A stretch of 45,704 bases of DNA from a virus. Of this stretch, positions 16,701-43,995 are shown in pieces. The notes under the pieces were generated by a model. It searched no databases and was not told where the DNA came from. It was given only the letters and a program-made list of their open reading frames with translations. The position numbers were made by a program, and so were the translations under genes. How positions within the stretch are numbered: the stretch's first letter is position 1; each line of letters opens with the position of its first letter. The stretch lies in the IMG/VR virus record IMGVR_UViG_3300033145_000982, positions 1 through 45,704 of that record. One strand, written 5' to 3'.

Positions 16701-19700
16701 ATTATTAAATGATGAAGAAGGTTTACTTAATTTAATTAATAAGGAATTTGGTTTAAAAAATGGTCCTGAATATCGTAAAATACTTGAAAAAACAATACTT
16801 CTTGTAGCTCAAGTTAAAGATTTATATAGAGAAGAAGGAACAGAACAGTTAATAGATTTTCTTGCACCACATTATAATAGATTATATGCTGAATTAAAAC
16901 GAAAAAAGATCAAAGAGTATAGAAAAAAGAAAATTACAGGACAAATTCCGTCAGGATTGTCTGAAGCACAATATATTTCAGAGGCATTTGATGAAGAAGG
17001 TGAAACTTTAGAAAGAGAAACTAGAAATTTAATGCGAAAAGAGATAATAAAAGCCAGTAGGGACATAAATGTTTTAACAAGGTGGATAGACAATGTGTTA
17101 GATAGTGAAGATCCTGTTACTGCAGCTATGGTAAAAGCATTTGTATTTGCAGATGATGAATCTAGATTAGGAAGTCTCGCAAAAAGAGATGAAGTTGCAT
17201 CAGTCATTCGTGAAATGGAGAATTGGTATAAAAATAATGGTGGAATTCCAAAATCAGTTGAAGAATTTTATAATTTTATGTTAGAACGAAATGAAGATAC
17301 TGGTGAATTAACTGGATATTATATTACTAAAGCTAAATCTTCTATGATGGATCAATATAGACACGTAATTAGTGTATCTAAAGATCTTGAAACTAGTGAA
17401 CAACGTAAAGTATTTATTAAAGCTTGGTTAAATGAAAATAATCCATTACAAAAAGAAGCTTTTAGAGAAGCATATTCAAAATATTATGCAATATTAAATT
17501 CTGATGGTATTTTAACTAATAAAGAATATGATTTATTAGAAGAAAATGCATTATATAATATTAATAAACTTAGTATTGGAGAAATGCTTGAAAAGGGTCT
17601 TTTAAGTTATAGAGCACATGAAGCTCTTGATAAATGGTTAACTACTTATACTTGGGATTTTCGTATTCCTATTAAAAAATGGATTAATTCACAATATACT
17701 AAACTATTACCTATTCTTAAAGATAGTAATGATCCTAGAAAAAAACTATATGATTTAATAGTAAAATTACGTCAAGAAGGTGATAGTTTCTTACCATTTG
17801 GTTTTAGATTAGATTCAAGATTACCTGGAATTATTAAGCAAGGACATGAACGTATTCAATCAGGACAAAGTATTGGTGCTACTATAAGAGCTGGATTATC
17901 TAGAGAATTAAAGTTTAAAATAGATGACACTCATAGAATACATGAAGAATTAACAGATGAAGCAGAAAATGCTAAATATTTTTTACCTATTCATTTTACT
18001 GGTAGAGTTCAAAAGAAAGTTAAATATACAGATGAAGCAGGTGAAGAATATGAAGTATCTAAATTTGATGTAAAAGAACAATCATTTGATTTAGCTAGTA
18101 TATACTATAGGTATTGGTCTATGGCTTATGATTATAATGTTAAAGCTAAAATATTACCAGAAATGGAATTAGCTAAATTTATGATCAAAAAACGTCCTGC
18201 TATTAAATATGATTCATATGGTAGAAAAATATTACGTAAAACTCTTAAACGTAATAAAGGAATAAATGATGATGAAGGTAAACCAAGAGTTGAAAATAAT
18301 ACATATTTAGCAGAACAAGTTGAAGATTGGTTTAAAGCAGTTGTATATGGTATACAAGAAAAAGATGCTGGTAAACTTGGTAAATTAGATTTAGGTAAAA
18401 TTTTAAATTTTGTTAATAGTTATGTTTCACTTAATTTACTTGGACTTAATGTTGTAGCTGGTACAGCTAATGTTATATTAGGTAATGTATTGGAACGTAT
18501 AGAAAGTTTTGCTGGTGAATATATGTCTCCTAAAGATTTTTTATATGCTGATAAATATTATTTTGGTCATATGAAAGGTATGATTGGAGATATAGGATCT
18601 AGAGATGCTAAAGGATTAGGTACACATTTAATAGAATATTTTGGTGTATTAGATGATTATGGTATAGCAGATGCAGATAGGCGTACTAAATTTGGTCAAC
18701 TTTGGAGAACAGATACTTTATATAGTACTTCTAGAGTAGGAGAACATTATATGCAAGGTAGATTTTTATTTGGTTTACTTGCTAATAAAAGAGCTATTGA
18801 TAATGAAGGAAATGATATAGGTCGTATGCTTGATTATTATGAAATGAAAGATGGTAAATTAATTCTTAATGAAAAAGTAAATGTTGTTAAATCTAAATGG
18901 GAACAAAAAGATATAGATAATTTTAAATATAAAACACGTGGTATACTATCAAGATTACATGGTGAGTATTCTGCATTAGGTAAAGTAGCAATACAAAGAA
19001 TGGCATTAGGTCGTATGGCTTATTTATTTAGACATTTTATTGTACCTGGATTTAGACGTAGATGGGGTAGAGAAAAATATATTGAAAGATTAGGTCAATT
19101 TGTAGAAGGTAATTATATTACTACTGGAAAATTTATTGGAGATGTTGGTGGTAGAATATTTGGTAAAACAGATGAAAATTCAGAATTGGATTTCTTTAGT
19201 AGATTGATAAATAATTTACAATCTTTTAAATTTTCATTATGGAAACAAGATTGGGCAGCTATGACAGATCATGAAAAAGCAAATATACAAAGAACTTTAT
19301 ACGAAGTTGGTTTCTTAGTATTAGCTGTTATATTATCTAATATAGCAATGCATTTTAAAGGAGAAGCTGATGATGATGATGACGAATTTGCACAAAAATA
19401 TTGGTCATTTGTAGCATATCAAACATATAGATTACAAAATGAGTTATTGTTTTTTACACCTAAATTAGATAGTGCTTTTTCTATACTTAGATCACCTGCT
19501 GCTTCTATTAGTTTTTTAGAAAATTTAATAGAATTAAGTGGTCAAATATTTCATCCATTAGATATATATGAAGCAGGTCCTTGGAAAGGACGTTCTAAAA
19601 TTATAAAAACAACTAATAATATGTTACCTTTATTAAGACAATATTATAGATTAAGAGATCTTGAAGTACAAATACCATGGATGCAAAAAGCATCTTTAAG

Positions 19701-19728
19701 TGGTAGGCCTAGAGATAAAACAGAATAA
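13759..19728 (+). CDS. Giant virion protein with zincin-type protease motif and PD-(D/E)XK nuclease motif
   Basis: This 1989-residue protein probably belongs to the virion and ejection apparatus, like the giant proteins that neighbour the RNA polymerase in other crAss-like phages. HELLH (449-453) sits in a helix-like context (ISFAHELLHSFTEQ) and fits a zinc metalloprotease. Further on, D726 in AGSIDIVVID and D740-x-K742 in YDIKTK form a PD-(D/E)XK nuclease core. Two hydrophobic segments lie near residues 1553-1575 and 1850-1868; the second looks like a true transmembrane helix and is followed by a run of five aspartates. The ATG overlaps the end of the homing endonuclease gene. The N-terminus (CPYPNSPEWIKLV) is hydrophilic and looks native. 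It ends 18 bases before a strong terminator. Its exact role (ejected enzyme, scaffold protease or host-DNA nuclease) cannot be told from sequence. Confidence 0.85.
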   Translation: MVACPYPNSPEWIKLVDAVGETEAYKVFLANGELVPDMNTIDLVIAKFKGSKTSIDKYNELTNYSDILNINFKNLDGKSFYSPYNSIYIDNSNIYEYINNRQDYIERISAGGTHYFFEWLADVEERGELFSYGVKFTKQNNSILVQYDPDTKLRGIIKGEHKILSEEKHFDNIYDGIKALYNRVGNINIFIPELKYNGTTSDFLGIESKIKDIKKEETKDEFIARKNLQIENGMYKEKSGKLVPITDDYNPETWWYEKKEGLVTFPSGNRTPTLFNYSDAHEKTIELNRKYPDENVVFGKEQIVFPSVYTAKSRNLSPNKKPIYRIKVTSIPMQYSIINEISIDRDVEREDELIVQAFELLEDKTPVEAIDVLLNLDIADELKTLLTFFRTKLKDNPTLKFAIKDYLSNKKHVSGSYIPSTNTITLYRKAMEEYYGGDLTQVIGISFAHELLHSFTEQVFQNYKEGIANDKEKEFIITITRLYNIAKKQTKYKNEPAFENAEEWISVILTDPMYLNEAMKMRLNVWQRILAAFKRLFGISSDSVYNQAFDNVISYIYNTSNFRVTSKDASIKLRKLEEDVHLRKENETHVTMWNKLQAFANQFDFNEGDHTYFHKASKEFFYSTTEQMKRIGITPKYKLSEDPEKAELQTFRQIRGLSVGNITHGITEANLKQVAINILESNNYKWTQDTIDNIESILKQFKRPGVTVLSEVLVADISLKLAGSIDIVVIDENNKVHLYDIKTKVVGFSRLKLKNPITRRTPLEEYAFQLSVYKDAFEKMTGLDVESLNVITIKPEVENKTVVDIKLDTTHSKSGIITVPYNRGVYALYSLLKSSGTDKRLDTLNEFNRDKLSDEERAERDEELRKVIETAKNNLEDLTEEERGLLKRKEIIYKSAEALVFKRQVLYRTGKRSQIESHDELIEHLLDEDTEVEEALINLVKYANTSAIKIWNEYEEYKKEGKTIPLTILYAWKDSVSVWNSLLNDEEGLLNLINKEFGLKNGPEYRKILEKTILLVAQVKDLYREEGTEQLIDFLAPHYNRLYAELKRKKIKEYRKKKITGQIPSGLSEAQYISEAFDEEGETLERETRNLMRKEIIKASRDINVLTRWIDNVLDSEDPVTAAMVKAFVFADDESRLGSLAKRDEVASVIREMENWYKNNGGIPKSVEEFYNFMLERNEDTGELTGYYITKAKSSMMDQYRHVISVSKDLETSEQRKVFIKAWLNENNPLQKEAFREAYSKYYAILNSDGILTNKEYDLLEENALYNINKLSIGEMLEKGLLSYRAHEALDKWLTTYTWDFRIPIKKWINSQYTKLLPILKDSNDPRKKLYDLIVKLRQEGDSFLPFGFRLDSRLPGIIKQGHERIQSGQSIGATIRAGLSRELKFKIDDTHRIHEELTDEAENAKYFLPIHFTGRVQKKVKYTDEAGEEYEVSKFDVKEQSFDLASIYYRYWSMAYDYNVKAKILPEMELAKFMIKKRPAIKYDSYGRKILRKTLKRNKGINDDEGKPRVENNTYLAEQVEDWFKAVVYGIQEKDAGKLGKLDLGKILNFVNSYVSLNLLGLNVVAGTANVILGNVLERIESFAGEYMSPKDFLYADKYYFGHMKGMIGDIGSRDAKGLGTHLIEYFGVLDDYGIADADRRTKFGQLWRTDTLYSTSRVGEHYMQGRFLFGLLANKRAIDNEGNDIGRMLDYYEMKDGKLILNEKVNVVKSKWEQKDIDNFKYKTRGILSRLHGEYSALGKVAIQRMALGRMAYLFRHFIVPGFRRRWGREKYIERLGQFVEGNYITTGKFIGDVGGRIFGKTDENSELDFFSRLINNLQSFKFSLWKQDWAAMTDHEKANIQRTLYEVGFLVLAVILSNIAMHFKGEADDDDDEFAQKYWSFVAYQTYRLQNELLFFTPKLDSAFSILRSPAASISFLENLIELSGQIFHPLDIYEAGPWKGRSKIIKTTNNMLPLLRQYYRLRDLEVQIPWMQKASLSGRPRDKTE

Positions 19729-19746
19729 AGATAACATTGAGCTTTT

Positions 19747-19785
19747 AAAAAAAAAGGGGGCGATCATTTTTGATCAACCCCTTTT
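19747..19785. terminator. Bidirectional rho-independent terminator between convergent gene blocks
   Basis: A run of nine A, then GGGG, a two-by-two internal loop, GATCA-TTTT-TGATC, then CCCCTTTT. Read on the + strand the hairpin ends in TTTTCTTATTT; read on the - strand it ends in nine T. It lies between the stop of the 1989-residue virion gene and the stop of the coiled-coil gene at 19833, so it can serve both converging transcripts. Confidence 0.9.
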
Positions 19786-19832
19786 CTTATTTAAACAACT
19801 GTAATATTAATTTAATTTAAAGTGTTGGTATT

Positions 19833-20744
19833 TTAAGAACGATAAAGATTCATATCAGGATTTCTCCAACCATAATATATCTCTCGTATTGGATTAAATA
19901 ATTTTTCTGTTATACTTTTAAATGAATCGTATTCTCTTATTTTTCCATTTTCTTTTACCCATGTGGTACCGATATTATCAACTCGTCTTTTCTTTTCTAT
20001 AAGTTGTTTCTGAGCTTCAATTCGTTCGGCACTAAGTGTACGTAATTTGAAAACTCTATTTACAAGATTTAATTTACCTAAATCTTCTATAGTAGTTTCA
20101 AGTTCTTTAATTTGAGATTTAAGATCTTTAATTTCCTGATTACGTTTCTTTTCAACTTCAAGATCAGTCTTATTATCCTTAATTTTTTTGATATCTTCTT
20201 TAAGTTCTTTGATAGTTTCTTTATAAGATTCTGCATCTTTAGTTGCAGCATTTGTTAAGAGTTTAACATTTTTATTATAACTTTCTTCGGCATCTTCTAA
20301 TTCAATTTTAGAAGTTTCTTTAGCTTTCTTTAATTGACGTTCTTTAACATCAACACGATCTTGTACAGTCTCTACATTGTTACGTAATGCTTTGATTAAT
20401 GATTTATCTTCGTTTGCTTCATCTTCTAAAGTAGTTATTTTATCTTTAACTTCTTTTTCAGCATCTTCTTTTGCTAAATTAGTAACTTCAGATAAATTAA
20501 TGTATTCCCTTTTAAAAGTATCTTTACTAAATTCTTCATCATAGTCATCAAATGTAAGACGTGAATGTATTACTTCAATTTTAGGATTAGTTTCTTTAAT
20601 TTCAGCAATTTTATTTGTTAAGTTATTAATGGTTTCTTTTAATACACCATTTTTTTCTCTTAATGAATTACTTGTATCTTTAAGATTATTATATTCATCA
20701 AGTTGAATAGTAGTAATTCTGATAGGTGTGGTATTTTTTGACAT
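19833..20744 (-). CDS. Long coiled-coil protein, function unknown
   Basis: This 303-residue protein is almost entirely heptad-like, rich in Glu, Lys, Leu and Asn from about residue 12 to 255, and its C-terminal tail (YYGWRNPDMNLYRS) is not coiled coil. No enzymatic motif, signal peptide or membrane segment is visible. It is the last gene of the - strand block, ending against the bidirectional terminator. The 43-base gap before its ATG holds repeated AAAT-type sequence and no hairpin, so it is probably co-transcribed with the gene upstream. A structural, scaffolding or DNA-organising role would be plausible for such a rod, but nothing in the sequence selects one. Confidence 0.8.
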   Translation of the reverse strand: MSKNTTPIRITTIQLDEYNNLKDTSNSLREKNGVLKETINNLTNKIAEIKETNPKIEVIHSRLTFDDYDEEFSKDTFKREYINLSEVTNLAKEDAEKEVKDKITTLEDEANEDKSLIKALRNNVETVQDRVDVKERQLKKAKETSKIELEDAEESYNKNVKLLTNAATKDAESYKETIKELKEDIKKIKDNKTDLEVEKKRNQEIKDLKSQIKELETTIEDLGKLNLVNRVFKLRTLSAERIEAQKQLIEKKRRVDNIGTTWVKENGKIREYDSFKSITEKLFNPIREIYYGWRNPDMNLYRS

Positions 20745-36645: not shown

Positions 36646-37137
36646 TTATATCAGTTCTAGTTCTGTATAGACTTCTATTTCAATTTCATGATCGTGATTA
36701 AAGTCAGAAAGTATTGTTTCGTATTCTCTGATTTTAATTTCAATCTCTTTCAATTCTTTTTCTACTTCAATATATGAAAGTTTAGCTTTGTATTCTACAG
36801 TTTTACCAGCAGATTTTAAGGTTGTTCTTTCTCCTTCAAAAGTATTAAGAGAATTTAAAAAGGCTTTACGCCTGTTAAAGTTAGATAAAGTATAGATGTT
36901 TTCATTGTTGCCTTGTTCATTAGCTTTAGCAATAACTTCTTTTACTTTTATCAATTGTTCTAATTTCAACTCGTACTGAGATTTCTTTAAAGAAAAGTCT
37001 ATTTGAGATTCTTCAGTAACAGGTCTAGAATTCCATTTTCGCATAAGACTTTCATCTTTACGAATATTATCTTCCAGATCTACTTTAACTCTTAATAATT
37101 GGTCTAGTTTTATAATTGATGTTTTTGTTTCTGCCAT
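36646..37137 (-). CDS. Coiled-coil protein, 163 residues, function unknown
   Basis: The protein is helical almost throughout, with heptad-like Leu and charged residues (LDQLLRVKVDLEDNIRKDE at the start; EVEKELKEIEIKIREYETIL near 125-145). A break around NIYTLSNFNRRKAFLNSL could be a loop between two antiparallel helices. There is no signal peptide and no enzyme motif. It follows the M23 endopeptidase gene by 37 bases; a weak 5-bp hairpin lies in that gap. No role can be assigned. Confidence 0.78.
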   Translation of the reverse strand: MAETKTSIIKLDQLLRVKVDLEDNIRKDESLMRKWNSRPVTEESQIDFSLKKSQYELKLEQLIKVKEVIAKANEQGNNENIYTLSNFNRRKAFLNSLNTFEGERTTLKSAGKTVEYKAKLSYIEVEKELKEIEIKIREYETILSDFNHDHEIEIEVYTELELI

Positions 37138-39538: not shown

Positions 39539-40042
39539 CTAATGATGAATTTCCTCAAGAGCTTCTGTCAAATAATTCTGAGTACGTTCAAGTAATTTAG
39601 CTCTTCTTTCGCATTCTTTAACAGATACTGCCATAAGAGCTTTGAATTTCTTCATAGCTTCATCTTCATCATAAATAACAAGAACTTTCTTTTCTTTACG
39701 ACCAAGATCGCCAGTAAGATCAATTGTGTGATCACCATTGACAATACATTGTTCAAGATCATCTGTAAGAACAGAAGCTTTAACCATTACTGGTGTATAG
39801 CTATATGCAAACATTGGAAAAATCTTTACATCATCTTCAGTTATTTTAACTCCTGATTTTGAATCAATAGTTCCTATGTCTGCAGGATCAATAACTGGAT
39901 ATGGACGAACAATATAGATTGATTCTCCAGGTTTAGGTATTAAATCCATTACATGATCTGGAAGAGCTTTAGGTTTTTTAACCTTATTTGTATCTTTTCC
40001 AGTAATTTCAATTTTAATGTTTGTTGCTTTTTCGTTGCTCAT
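39539..40042 (-). CDS. Unknown 167-residue protein
   Basis: No family recognised. It appears to be a compact beta-rich domain (ESIYIVRPYPVI, VKIFPMFAYSYTPVMVKASVL, KVLVIYDEDEAM) ended by a C-terminal helix (ALMAVSVKECERRAKLLERTQNYLTEALEE). The first 20 residues are Lys- and Thr-rich and probably disordered. Codon use is slightly less AT-biased than that of its neighbours. The start lies 29 bases inside the end of the preceding gene, indicating coupling. Its predicted acidity contrasts with the very basic gene next to it. Confidence 0.75.
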   Translation of the reverse strand: MSNEKATNIKIEITGKDTNKVKKPKALPDHVMDLIPKPGESIYIVRPYPVIDPADIGTIDSKSGVKITEDDVKIFPMFAYSYTPVMVKASVLTDDLEQCIVNGDHTIDLTGDLGRKEKKVLVIYDEDEAMKKFKALMAVSVKECERRAKLLERTQNYLTEALEEIHH

Positions 40043-40490
40043 TTTGATTGTTTATTAATGTTGGTTTAACATAAAACTTATCATTTTGACTAAATAAATA
40101 AGAAGCAATTTTTTTACTTCTTAGCATATGTCCAAACAATTTAACTTGTTGATTGATAAGACTGATCTCAGGTATAATTTTAGTTATACCTAGTGGATAA
40201 TTGTTGGGTATTACTACCCATAACCTGGTTAAGGGATGTTTTTTATTTCCCCAATAAACATACGGTAAGCGATACGTGTGTTTATCCCAATATTTTTTAT
40301 ATGGTCTAAGAAATGTTTTAAGGCCTATCTTTTTTCTAAAGTATTGATATTCTCGTCCTTTTAGGATTATGAAGTAACATCGGTAAACTTTATAAATTAG
40401 ACGTATACCACCATATAATTGATCTTTGTCTGTTTTTTGTGTCAAATCTGGTACATAGCTTTTTTTTAATTTAAATAAAAATTTTACCAT
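40014..40490 (-). CDS. Unknown basic 158-residue protein
   Basis: I recognise no family. The protein is rich in Tyr, Lys and Trp (YKVYRCYFIILKGREYQYF near 33-51; RPYKKYWDKHTYRLPYVYWGNKKH near 62-85), with no membrane segment. It is the first gene after the 1.8 kb region without genes, whose 3' end (on the - strand) lies directly before its ATG, with no terminator between them. Whatever transcript crosses that region could therefore continue into this gene. Confidence 0.72.
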   Translation of the reverse strand: MVKFLFKLKKSYVPDLTQKTDKDQLYGGIRLIYKVYRCYFIILKGREYQYFRKKIGLKTFLRPYKKYWDKHTYRLPYVYWGNKKHPLTRLWVVIPNNYPLGITKIIPEISLINQQVKLFGHMLRSKKIASYLFSQNDKFYVKPTLINNQNEQRKSNKH

Positions 40491-42303
40491 GATTTAACAT
40501 ATTAATGATTATTAAAATTATGTAGCCAAGTAAGGGAGAAGAGCACATGATTAGTTGCATTTTAATCGTAAACCGCTGTAGTGTCCTTGAACTCTGAATG
40601 TTTTAGCTCTGATATGTCTGGTATATGATTTCAGAAGGTTTACACCTTACTTCTTTGCTAGCCCACGGAATTTCATCCATGCCTATATCTGCGTTTTAAT
40701 TCATGCAGAAATGAATTTTGAATTTTCCTTTTAGTTTGCCTTATTCTTGATACTCATTATTTAGCTACTTACATAGATTTCATCCTATGTACTACTATCA
40801 TAATATCTATATATATGACACAACAAACTCTAATGAAAAGTTTCCCCAAACGTTAGATTCGTGTTCACTAAATAAATTCACCCTCTACACCTGACAAGCT
40901 ATTTGTAAATAGAATAAACAAATATTTGTCTCCCTTGTAGGTATGAATACTAACAAATAATTTTTTTTGAATACTACTTAATTATCGACCTCGGTCGGTG
41001 ATTGGTTCTATGATTTTGGACATCATATCGTAGAAACTGCTACGACCAGTTGTGTACCCTTAGTATATCTTTTTCGAAATCTGATATAATTTGGAATTTA
41101 AATACTACTGTACATCTCATATGTAGAAACGACTAGCTTTTACCCCTCATTTTATATATACTTTTTTGGCAACTAATTTACCAATTAACTTCCCAATCAC
41201 AAATATTAGTCTATTTGCAACGATTCTTAAATCTTGCGAAATATTAAATAACAGTAGTTAAAGATTTTTTTGTAATTTTGATCAGTACATCTAGGCTCTT
41301 AGACTACATCATGAATCCATAGTTAACTCAGATAATAGGAGATGCAGAAGCACTACCAACGGTACAATTACTAAAAACATTAGTTTTCTTTTCGTTTTAG
41401 AGTGTATAATTCTCTTTTCTTGAATACGACCGATATTTTACACAATACTTTCATATTGTAACGGCGGTGGGTTCTTACCACGAAGCCTTATGTATTTTAA
41501 TATAAGTATATAGTCTTGGTTTTGTATGTGACTTCAATAACTCATCTTAGATATGCTCTTGCCAAGCATAGTTTTAGACCTGTTAAAGTTTCAATTGTTG
41601 TTATTCCAATCTTTTACTCAACCCTAGAGAATTACTAGGTATCAAACTCCTCAATATTTTACTGTGAGGTGGCAGATTCCATCTAAATTAGTTGTCAATC
41701 ATTTAAAATGTATGTTAGTTAAGTGCTTCCTATAGTTCGTTGTAATATTATCAGGTAAATGCTAAATTACCCTAATTAGTCCTTACTATAGTTTAAGTTC
41801 CTTTTCCCCCAGTAGGAGATAGTTCAGTAAGTTGCATCTGAACAACATTAACATACAAATACATTACAGTTTCAGTAATGTATAAATGGTTTCTAATTGA
41901 TTTTAGACTTTACAACCTTAACGAATTAACCCAAGGATTTTCACCTTTTGCGTTGTATTTCGAATTGTATAAAAGCTGTACATGAACATTTATTCCTTAT
42001 TGTGATATCGTTGAACAACTTATATGGTTCCAGAGACTAATATATAGTATTAATACTTTTTCTAGAGTAGCATATAGTAGGTTTACAGTTCTGATTGTCT
42101 CACAATTGTAATTTTACAACAGGAAGTATTTTCATAGCGTACCCCGTTTGATTTAGTTAATATGTCCATTTGCCTAGGATGGCTACATTATAACTTATCC
42201 ATCTGACGGTAGTATACATCACGTTGTGCACATTTTATGAAGTTAACTTTGAATATATATCCTCGCAGTAGTCCTCAAAAGTATTGCGTGTACTCGGTGC
42301 AGT
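40491..42303. ncRNA. 1.8 kb region without genes, hairpin-rich; candidate large structured RNA
   Basis: No ORF of useful length exists on either strand here, whereas the rest of the window is packed with genes. GC is locally higher (about 38-40% in several 60-base blocks, near 22% in others). Perfect or near-perfect stems recur: 40633-40651, 40770-40791 (7 bp), 41028-41045, 41552-41570, 41623-41639, 41649-41669, 41754-41771, 41859-41883 (9 bp, loop AGTTTCA) and 42166-42182. These properties are shared with giant phage RNAs such as GOLLD and ROOL, but I could not match it to either. G-U pairing does not settle the strand: some stems favour + and some -. Decayed coding DNA and a replication or packaging region remain alternatives. 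No tRNA was found in it. Confidence 0.45.
41859..41883. repeat. Strongest hairpin in the region without genes (9-bp stem)
   Basis: ATACATTAC (41859-41867) and GTAATGTAT (41875-41883) are perfect inverted repeats with a 7-base loop AGTTTCA. The stem is equally good on both strands and has no following T-run, so it is not a terminator. Confidence 0.7.
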
Positions 42304-43995
42304 TTATAGCGTATAATACTGCAATTTATCAACAACATTACGCATACCATTAAATTTTAGTATAGCAAAGTTGCTGAGACGAATCATTGAAGTTTTATCA
42401 AGTTCTGTTGCCATAGTGTGGATAATTTCTCTAACATTATCCCATGTCATATGTCTTGAATCAAGAAGATCTTCTCTTATTTCAACATATAAATTGTAAA
42501 CAGGATTTTTGTAATCTTTATCCCAATTACGTTGAAGAAAACAATCTCTTATTAACCAATTATCTTTTAAGGTTTTTTCAAATAAATCAAGACTTGTTAA
42601 CCAAGGTTCAGTTATTTCACGTAAATCATCTTCATGTCTACGTTTTTTACCATAAATAAATAAATAATGACGATCTCCTTGATTAGGTACATTTTTTATA
42701 AACATACCAAGATCTTCGGATCTAATTAATCTATTATGTTCTTCTAAACAAACTTCTCCAACAGTTAAGTTAGTAGATGTAATAAATCCGTTTCCTTTAC
42801 TTCCATCAATATATATTTTATCATACAATTCATTTGTAGTTTTTAATAAAGTTCCACCTGATTTATAAATAAATTCCTTGTGTGAAAATAATTCTGGATC
42901 TTTAAATGCAAGAAAATTACCTTCTTCTAAAAATCCATAACTAGATGAAAACATTATTTTAGAATGCTTTAATATATCCAAAACATTACATCCTAATTCT
43001 TCATTTAAAATGTGTATCTTTGTTACTTGTTCTCCAACAATAGATCTAAGTTCAGCATTTAACCTAAATGTAACTATAGGTTTAGTTAAATACCATTTTG
43101 AAAATGCAAACCAAATTTTATTTGAAAGAACATTAAATAGTATTGTATCCCAAATTACTTTAAAATTATTTGATGAAATAAAAAGTACGGTTGGTTTATG
43201 TTCTGAATTATTAAACATTTCTTTTAATTCTTCACCAGAAGTTAAAGTAGCATCTGTTTCAGCTAATATGTATTGTGTACCATTTAGTAATCCTAATATG
43301 TTGTATACACCTGGATAAAATTCCATATCTGCAATAACGCTTACTTTATCGGTAATCTTAAGTCCCATAAAATGAGATAAAGCTACCATGGATTTTCCAA
43401 GTAGTCTGTATGGTATATTTACAATTCCTGATGAGGTACTTGTGCCTGGTGATAAAATACTAACTGATCTGTTTGGATCGTTTGTTAAAATAGTTCTTCC
43501 TCTTTTAAATAAATTAATAAATTGAGAATTTTTTACATACTTTTGTTCTCCCATAATTTCTAACATTTTCATGATAGTTTCTATATTTCCAAAAAACTGA
43601 AGTATATTTATACCCTCTAATTCTTCTAATTGTTCAATAGCAGATAATATTTCTTTATCTACAAATAAAACATTGATATCTCTTCTAGATAAAATAGAAT
43701 TAACTATTTCATCCAATGAAAATTTAGGAGATATCATAAGTAATTTACTACCTGTTAAAAAACAATACAAAAATAGTATAGATTTAAATAAAATATTTTC
43801 TGATATTACTACTATTTTAGCATCATTAAATGGATCGACATTTTTTAACTTATTGGTAATATATTTGTCTAGAGCTGTTAATGCACCATATAACGTTTTG
43901 AAATGAAGTATCAAATTGTTATTGGTCGAAGTGTAAAACATACGATTTGTATGATGTTTACATTTGTTGAGTACATGTGCAAATACATTTTTCAT
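42304..43995 (-). CDS. AMP-binding (ANL superfamily) adenylate-forming enzyme-like protein
   Basis: This 563-residue protein has the length and motif order of acyl-CoA synthetases and related adenylating enzymes. SILSPGTSTSSGIVNIP (179-195) stands where the P-loop T/S-SGTTG-x-PKG is found, with the lysine missing. KVSVIADMEFYPGVYNILGLLNG (217-239) matches the region after it. SSSYGFLEEG (350-359) stands for YG-x-TE. GEVCLEEHNRLIRSEDLGMF (413-432) stands for the TGD motif. YLFIYGKKRR (444-453) is the hinge. The C-terminus has LSNFAILKFNGMRNVVDK, where the catalytic Lys of the small domain would lie. Such enzymes activate a carboxylate with ATP. The motifs are degenerate, so it may be an active divergent enzyme or a binding protein. 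It is co-translated with the two genes upstream (TAATG overlap) and precedes the 1.8 kb region without genes. Confidence 0.75.
   Translation of the reverse strand: MKNVFAHVLNKCKHHTNRMFYTSTNNNLILHFKTLYGALTALDKYITNKLKNVDPFNDAKIVVISENILFKSILFLYCFLTGSKLLMISPKFSLDEIVNSILSRRDINVLFVDKEILSAIEQLEELEGINILQFFGNIETIMKMLEIMGEQKYVKNSQFINLFKRGRTILTNDPNRSVSILSPGTSTSSGIVNIPYRLLGKSMVALSHFMGLKITDKVSVIADMEFYPGVYNILGLLNGTQYILAETDATLTSGEELKEMFNNSEHKPTVLFISSNNFKVIWDTILFNVLSNKIWFAFSKWYLTKPIVTFRLNAELRSIVGEQVTKIHILNEELGCNVLDILKHSKIMFSSSYGFLEEGNFLAFKDPELFSHKEFIYKSGGTLLKTTNELYDKIYIDGSKGNGFITSTNLTVGEVCLEEHNRLIRSEDLGMFIKNVPNQGDRHYLFIYGKKRRHEDDLREITEPWLTSLDLFEKTLKDNWLIRDCFLQRNWDKDYKNPVYNLYVEIREDLLDSRHMTWDNVREIIHTMATELDKTSMIRLSNFAILKFNGMRNVVDKLQYYTL

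Follow-up and report, generated by a model that had tools for sequence, protein, structure and literature searches.

What does a phage genome hold between two minus-strand genes when no reading frame can be found there under any plausible genetic code? Positions 40491-42303 of the IMG/VR virus record IMGVR_UViG_3300033145_000982 raise this question (the whole stretch of 45,704 nucleotides that was analysed is called the window below). A reading of the same DNA without comparison to other genomes, hereafter the sequence-only reading, had proposed a giant structured phage RNA. The evidence gathered here supports that proposal, since the homologues show conserved structure that covaries and no sign of a decayed gene, and Rfam has no match in the gap, and we regard it as nearly certain, from comparison of sequences and in the absence of expression data, that the region is an RNA gene, its expression being inferred.

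The locus and its neighbours

By its DNA polymerase and its genome layout, the window is a Crassvirales phage: the best matches of the polymerase among GenBank phages are gut crAss genomes (31% over the full length), and the layout is crAss-like, with gene blocks that diverge and a giant protein of 4111 aa. The borders of the gap are exact: it is flanked by two minus-strand genes, one of 563 aa that ends at 42304 and the following one, which has its start at 40490. No other ORF-free stretch in the whole window exceeds 900 nt. The longest stop-free run in the gap is 47 codons, both strands considered, and when TAG, TGA or both are read as sense the runs are no longer than those of shuffled sequences, so that the absence of any reading frame, claimed by the sequence-only reading, is exact. 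The GC content is 31-32%, versus about 25-29% in the adjoining genes.

The same reading had called the region rich in hairpins. Hairpins are present, but their richness in the single sequence is not significant on the correct strand: the fold z-score of the kilobase 40500-41490 is -0.5 on the genes' strand and -2.7 on the opposite one. Because this signal is unconvincing, local stems of one sequence are no proof of structure. Evidence for promoters or terminators in 40491-42303 was not above chance, which leaves the transcript ends undefined; the reported lack of a terminator at the second border agrees with our finding none on the minus strand.

The upstream protein, described beforehand as AMP-binding, had no match in a Pfam scan, but a profile built from nine of its homologues hits acyl-CoA ligases of the ANL family (Table 1); it is kept beside the RNA in the window's clade, and its motifs appear degenerate. 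The downstream basic protein belongs to an uncharacterised family that is also kept beside the gap. AlphaFold models of the two proteins were too poor in quality for use.

A syntenic gene-free slot in related phages

Protein scans with the window's ANL and basic proteins retrieved no loci, the sequences being too diverged. The ribonucleotide reductase (RNR) gene, 4 kb from the gap, was the bait for relatives. Eight of the contigs found with it keep the gene order, the basic-protein gene lying close by and being preceded directly by an ORF-poor gap of 1311-1944 nt. Further members came from a pattern scan (L027), an RNR profile (L049) and a GTDB contig (L265), giving 12 with the window; the pattern scan, with AAGGGTGGAATTCCC, hit 25 contigs, the genuine ones being L027 and one already known. 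The gene-free slot, of ~1.3-1.9 kb, is syntenic in all 12 crAss-like phage contigs, upstream of the same basic-protein gene. GenBank phages searched with the RNA or the basic protein of this clade yielded no relative. One relative (L016) carries a group I intron at 19663-19900.

The gaps are conserved as nucleotides. DNA identity is 62% over 1314 nt between the window and L002, 64-72% among L004, L005 and L006, and 69-80% among L007, L016 and L019. In this last trio the gap is conserved about equally with the two directly flanking genes, only 3 of its 50 indels are multiples of three, and substitutions lack codon phase. A decayed protein gene in homologues, which would have refuted the sequence-only reading, was not seen.

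Comparative evidence for RNA structure

We aligned the gaps in three groups: A (window, L002), B (L004, L005, L006, L027) and C (L007, L016, L019). On the genes' strand, the consensus-fold energy (alifold) was -143 kcal/mol in group A, against -78.6+-7.8 in column-shuffled alignments (~8 s.d.); the corresponding values were -123 against -45+-5 in group B (~16 s.d.) and -232 against -130+-8 in group C (~13 s.d.). Whole-length folds of the sense strand outscore those of the antisense strand in each group. Windowed z-scores averaged -2.5, -4.6 and -3.9 in groups A, B and C, versus -1.3 to -2.0 in coding controls taken from these genomes (their RNR and DNA polymerase genes). The diverged pair L003/L049 gave no significant consensus fold on the sense strand (mean z -0.5). 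Since group B windows score equally well on the antisense strand, as is often so with strong helices, the strand call rests on whole-length energies, G-U tolerance and gene orientation.

The sequence-only reading had looked to homologues for covariation, and they provide it: compensatory changes occur in dozens of helices over most of the region, with 62, 82 and 78 compensatory pairs in groups A, B and C versus shuffle means of 45, 30 and 29. Long-range helices are predicted in all three groups, and block order is constant within the clade. The window and L002 alone share 18 stems, a modest excess over shuffles (mean 10.7, maximum 16), and for that reason the structure is uncertain in parts of the window itself. 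Structure is proved by the homologues, and it is this comparative evidence that carries the claim.

Individual RNA elements

Four elements were scored by hand-specified structure: domain I, the T-arm hairpin, the UGAAA hairpin and a UCGUAA hairpin, the last found in seven members (coordinates of the window's features are in Table 1). The 5-bp closing helix of domain I pairs in 12 of 12 sequences, and each of its five pairs is changed on both sides. Its covariance model (R1) gives one strong match per genome in all 12, while about 130 other loci yield none; a model from which the window and its nearest relative, L002, were left out still recovers both as top matches (E 2.4e-6 and 2.7e-4). The UGAAA hairpin stem has 20 double-changed cells, against 6.4 expected, in the 12 sequences. 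Three loop sequences, UGRRAUU, UUCRAAU and (G)UGAAA(N), agree with what we take to be the T-loop consensus.

ORF-free stretches longer than 1 kb also occur in other viral contigs (L023 2473-4128, L053 13376-14395, L054 994-2166, L132 17060-18189, L185 10475-11609, L206 7364-8742). Neither these stretches nor the other ORF-free gaps among the loci analysed match the R1 model.

Table 1. Positions of the putative RNA, its elements and its flanking genes in the window.
Feature	Position	Strand	Basis
Whole putative ncRNA locus (5' terminus around 42303, 3' terminus around 40491)	40491..42303	-	ORF-free; conserved as nucleotides; alifold energy
Upstream gene, diverged ANL (AMP-binding) superfamily protein	42304..43995	-	Profile match, 2-succinylbenzoate-CoA ligase, E 1.3e-9
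Domain I, 5-bp helix closing T-loop-like hairpin AAGG-UGAAAAU-CCUU (41933-41947)	41912..41956	-	Covariation and covariance model
tRNA T-arm-like hairpin GGCUUC-GUGG-UAAGAAC-CCAC	41466..41493	-	Stem covaries in 12 sequences
Hairpin UCGUAG..CUACGA	41028..41045	-	Compensatory changes versus L002 (ACUGUAG..CUACAGU)
T-loop-like UGAAA hairpin ACAUAG-GAUGAAAU-CUAUGU	40771..40790	-	Covariation of 5-bp stem
Second UGAAA hairpin CAUGGA-UGAAAU-UCCGUG	40664..40681	-	Covaries with L002 (UGUGGA..UCCACA)
Conserved 3' motif CUAAAACAUUCAGAGU	40591..40606	-	Similar motif near 3' end in most members
Conserved 3' motif GGUUUACGAUUA	40563..40574	-	Similar motif in L002, L003, L004, L006, L049, L265
Downstream basic-protein gene, family A1	40014..40490	-	Directly 3' of gap in clade members

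Searches against known RNA families

At the gathering threshold, no Rfam family was found in the gaps of the window and eight relatives. Scans at permissive E-values of the gaps of the window, L005 and L016 gave no GOLLD or ROOL match; they yielded a tmRNA T-arm fragment in L005 and otherwise chance-level matches, including MALAT1- and snoRNA-like ones in the window. The tmRNA fragment is the L005 homologue of the T-arm-like hairpin (E 3e-4, below threshold), and a tmRNA identity was rejected, the match reaching 16.8 bits versus the 47 needed and ARAGORN finding none in the window. The sequence-only reading had pointed to GOLLD, ROOL, OLE and introns as families to be searched, and none of them matches the gap. 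As Rfam includes models for GOLLD, ROOL and OLE (PMC12286853), these three are excluded at the sensitivity of such scans. In a literature search whose coverage lacked most subscription journals, no account of an RNA of this sort in crAss-like phages came up, nor do the main texts of PMC7886860 and PMC8040213 mention one.

A likely counterpart in gut Suoliviridae

Unannotated gaps of 1.9-2.5 kb fill the matching slot in 13 of the 13 gut Suoliviridae records examined, from five subfamilies. The gap of cr52_1, at 76311-74257 on the minus strand, precedes the DNA polymerase cluster, spans 2.06 kb and has no long frames. Its DNA is recovered by blastn from seven further records that belong to three annotated genera, and Cacepaovirus and Cohcovirus give weaker partial matches. 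Three further genomes, picked by DNA polymerase only (cr6_1, cr10_1, cr118_1), have the same slot: a sigma factor gene is followed by a small gene or a spacer, a gene of ~500 aa, one or more small genes, the gap of 1.9-2.1 kb and two ~180-aa genes. No long frame occurs in their gaps, where the longest runs without a stop measure 62-131 codons. DNA similarity of the gaps is seen between subfamilies. Seven Loutivirinae-type sequences fold at -218 kcal/mol versus -101+-5 in shuffles, with 103 compensatory pairs versus 28. The shared slot, the DNA similarity and the strong covariation, which was seen in the seven sequences tested, show that a structured RNA locus of ~2 kb is conserved in Suoliviridae.

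Some observations concern these genomes individually. Two gut reference genomes annotate an opposite-strand hypothetical protein inside the RNA gap, likely spurious (L290 3935-4372, L291 3937-4374). There is one tRNA near the gap in cr4_1, and cr52_1 (L288 31877-35107) has RAGATH-20, RAGATH-9 and hatchet ribozyme RNAs near an annotated tmRNA gene. No 2-kb gap exists in the annotated part examined of crAss001 (L299, NC_049977; 42966-45289 region). This phage has an unannotated 905-nt gap directly downstream of gp96, a protein with TROVE/Ro60 and Ro60-vWA domains; the gap contains a tRNA-family match of 46.6 bits with an insertion, and the two might represent a Ro60 protein of the phage and an RNA partner resembling Y RNA.

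Are the environmental and gut RNAs one? Synteny of the two slots is conserved: in three gut genera the gene family at 36646-37137 of the window has homologues (E 1.7e-9 to 3e-6), which are found 1.4-1.9 kb downstream of the gap. Both slots precede a DNA polymerase cluster, and their RNAs are similar in size, covary strongly and have T-loop-like hairpins, but no significant sequence match joins them and the T-loop hairpin lies elsewhere. The R1 T-loop hairpin match within the gut gap is weak and at a different place in the order, no DNA similarity between the gaps of the window's clade and those of gut phages is convincing, and no relationship to the ANL protein could be detected for the ~510-aa protein encoded upstream of the gap in gut phages. 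The best score of the R3 hairpin model in 269 kb of gut sequence falls inside the gap, on the right strand and mid-gap as in environmental members. Homology of the RNAs is only suggested; it is unproven because R3 matches are confined to Loutivirinae among the gut subfamilies (E 0.06-0.12 per search) and absent from environmental groups A and C. We lean towards a common origin, which lacks proof and rests on an indirect link. The wider proposal, a single ancestral ~2 kb RNA kept at a fixed locus in gut Suoliviridae and environmental crAss-like phages and forming an RNA particle needed in infection, is one that we entertain seriously without quite favouring it. We know of no phage ncRNA as large as this.

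One large RNA or something else

We hold with good though incomplete confidence that the region is one very large structured ncRNA gene acting in trans, its transcription being inferred. A very long cis-acting leader, a structured 5' untranslated region through which the basic-protein operon would be regulated in its translation or in the processing of its transcript, would account for the gap always ending just before the same gene, on the same strand, in the window's clade. This we find improbable: at 1.3-2.5 kb the region far exceeds leaders known to us, conservation spans most of it, and the slot persists in gut Suoliviridae though the first downstream gene differs there and no homologue of the window's basic protein is present. 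A set of several smaller, separate RNAs in one intergenic region is no more credible. The many local covarying hairpins and the variation in size through insertions between conserved blocks fit such a set, but the predicted long-range helices, the constant block order and the lack of internal minus-strand terminators speak for continuity. Neither the leader nor the cluster of small RNAs is excluded by computation.

That the gap is an element acting at the DNA level, such as a replication origin or packaging site, or else a protein gene that has decayed or been recoded, is very unlikely: its location in the replication-gene half of the genome would suit the former, but whole-length folds are biased to the sense strand, and the non-triplet indels, the missing codon phase and the lack of a frame under TAG/TGA reassignment led us to reject the latter. 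A self-splicing intron, ribozyme or mobile-element remnant can be dismissed almost outright, for although Crassvirales do have group I introns and ribozymes, no intron (group I/II), riboswitch or ribozyme model matches at the gathering threshold in the gaps of the scanned members, and the gap sits in conserved synteny between intact genes, not within one.

For the single large RNA, we infer that ~1.3-1.9 kb would be read on the minus strand as part of the transcription of the replication-side genes and probably released from the operon transcript. The RNA may then fold into a compact particle, with T-loops docking in tertiary contacts. Action in trans is likely, although no computed result shows it; it could proceed as an RNA-only assembly like GOLLD or ROOL, whose cages are precedents for an RNA particle (PMC12286853), or with a protein, e.g., the adjacent basic protein. 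During infection the RNA might, for example, hold or sequester tRNAs, ribosomes or some phage protein as a scaffold or sink, and this is a guess; a cage or sink role is the best guess available but less likely than not, and no computed result shows oligomers.

Significance and comparison with known RNAs

Giant phage RNAs are few, to our knowledge, and we know of none with an established function. The window's RNA, about twice the length of GOLLD, has no match among curated RNA families and has a likely counterpart in human gut crAss-like phages, where reference genomes show an unannotated gap. If the proposal of a single ancestral RNA is true, viruses that rank among the most abundant of the human gut have a hallmark molecule that was left unannotated, and it seems that a major viral molecule was overlooked in common gut phages.

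OLE is likewise a large ornate RNA with extensive covariation (PMC12286853), but it is bacterial rather than from phages and has no Rfam match in the window's clade. The tmRNA resembles the present RNA in having a T-arm and an acceptor-like helix within a larger RNA, and crAss-like phages also have annotated tmRNA genes; it differs in that only one member shows a weak partial match, and the window none. The megaplasmid lncRNA of L. salivarius is a ROOL-type RNA. Its length is 520 nt (PMC5643018). ROOL is, like the RNA described here, a large phage or prophage ncRNA with a complex conserved fold and no known function (PMC12286853), but it measures about 500-600 nt and has no Rfam match in the window's clade. 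GOLLD is also a large ornate phage-encoded ncRNA of unknown function, often beside tRNA genes, and its linker region can hold tRNAs (PMC12286853), where the window's RNA has a T-arm-like hairpin in place of a full tRNA. One tRNA gene lies ~2 kb downstream of the gap in L002, L004, L005 and L006, which in these four recalls the setting of GOLLD and ROOL (PMC12286853), and ARAGORN finds none in the window. GOLLD has around 800 nt and no Rfam match in the window's clade, versus 1.3-1.9 kb for this clade of crAss-like phages. The expectation of an RNA larger than these or composite was met in part: it is longer than both, but its size is typical of its own family rather than exceptional. The RNA, with expression inferred, is not a member of either family and is most likely GOLLD/ROOL-like in kind: large, phage-encoded and extensively structured.
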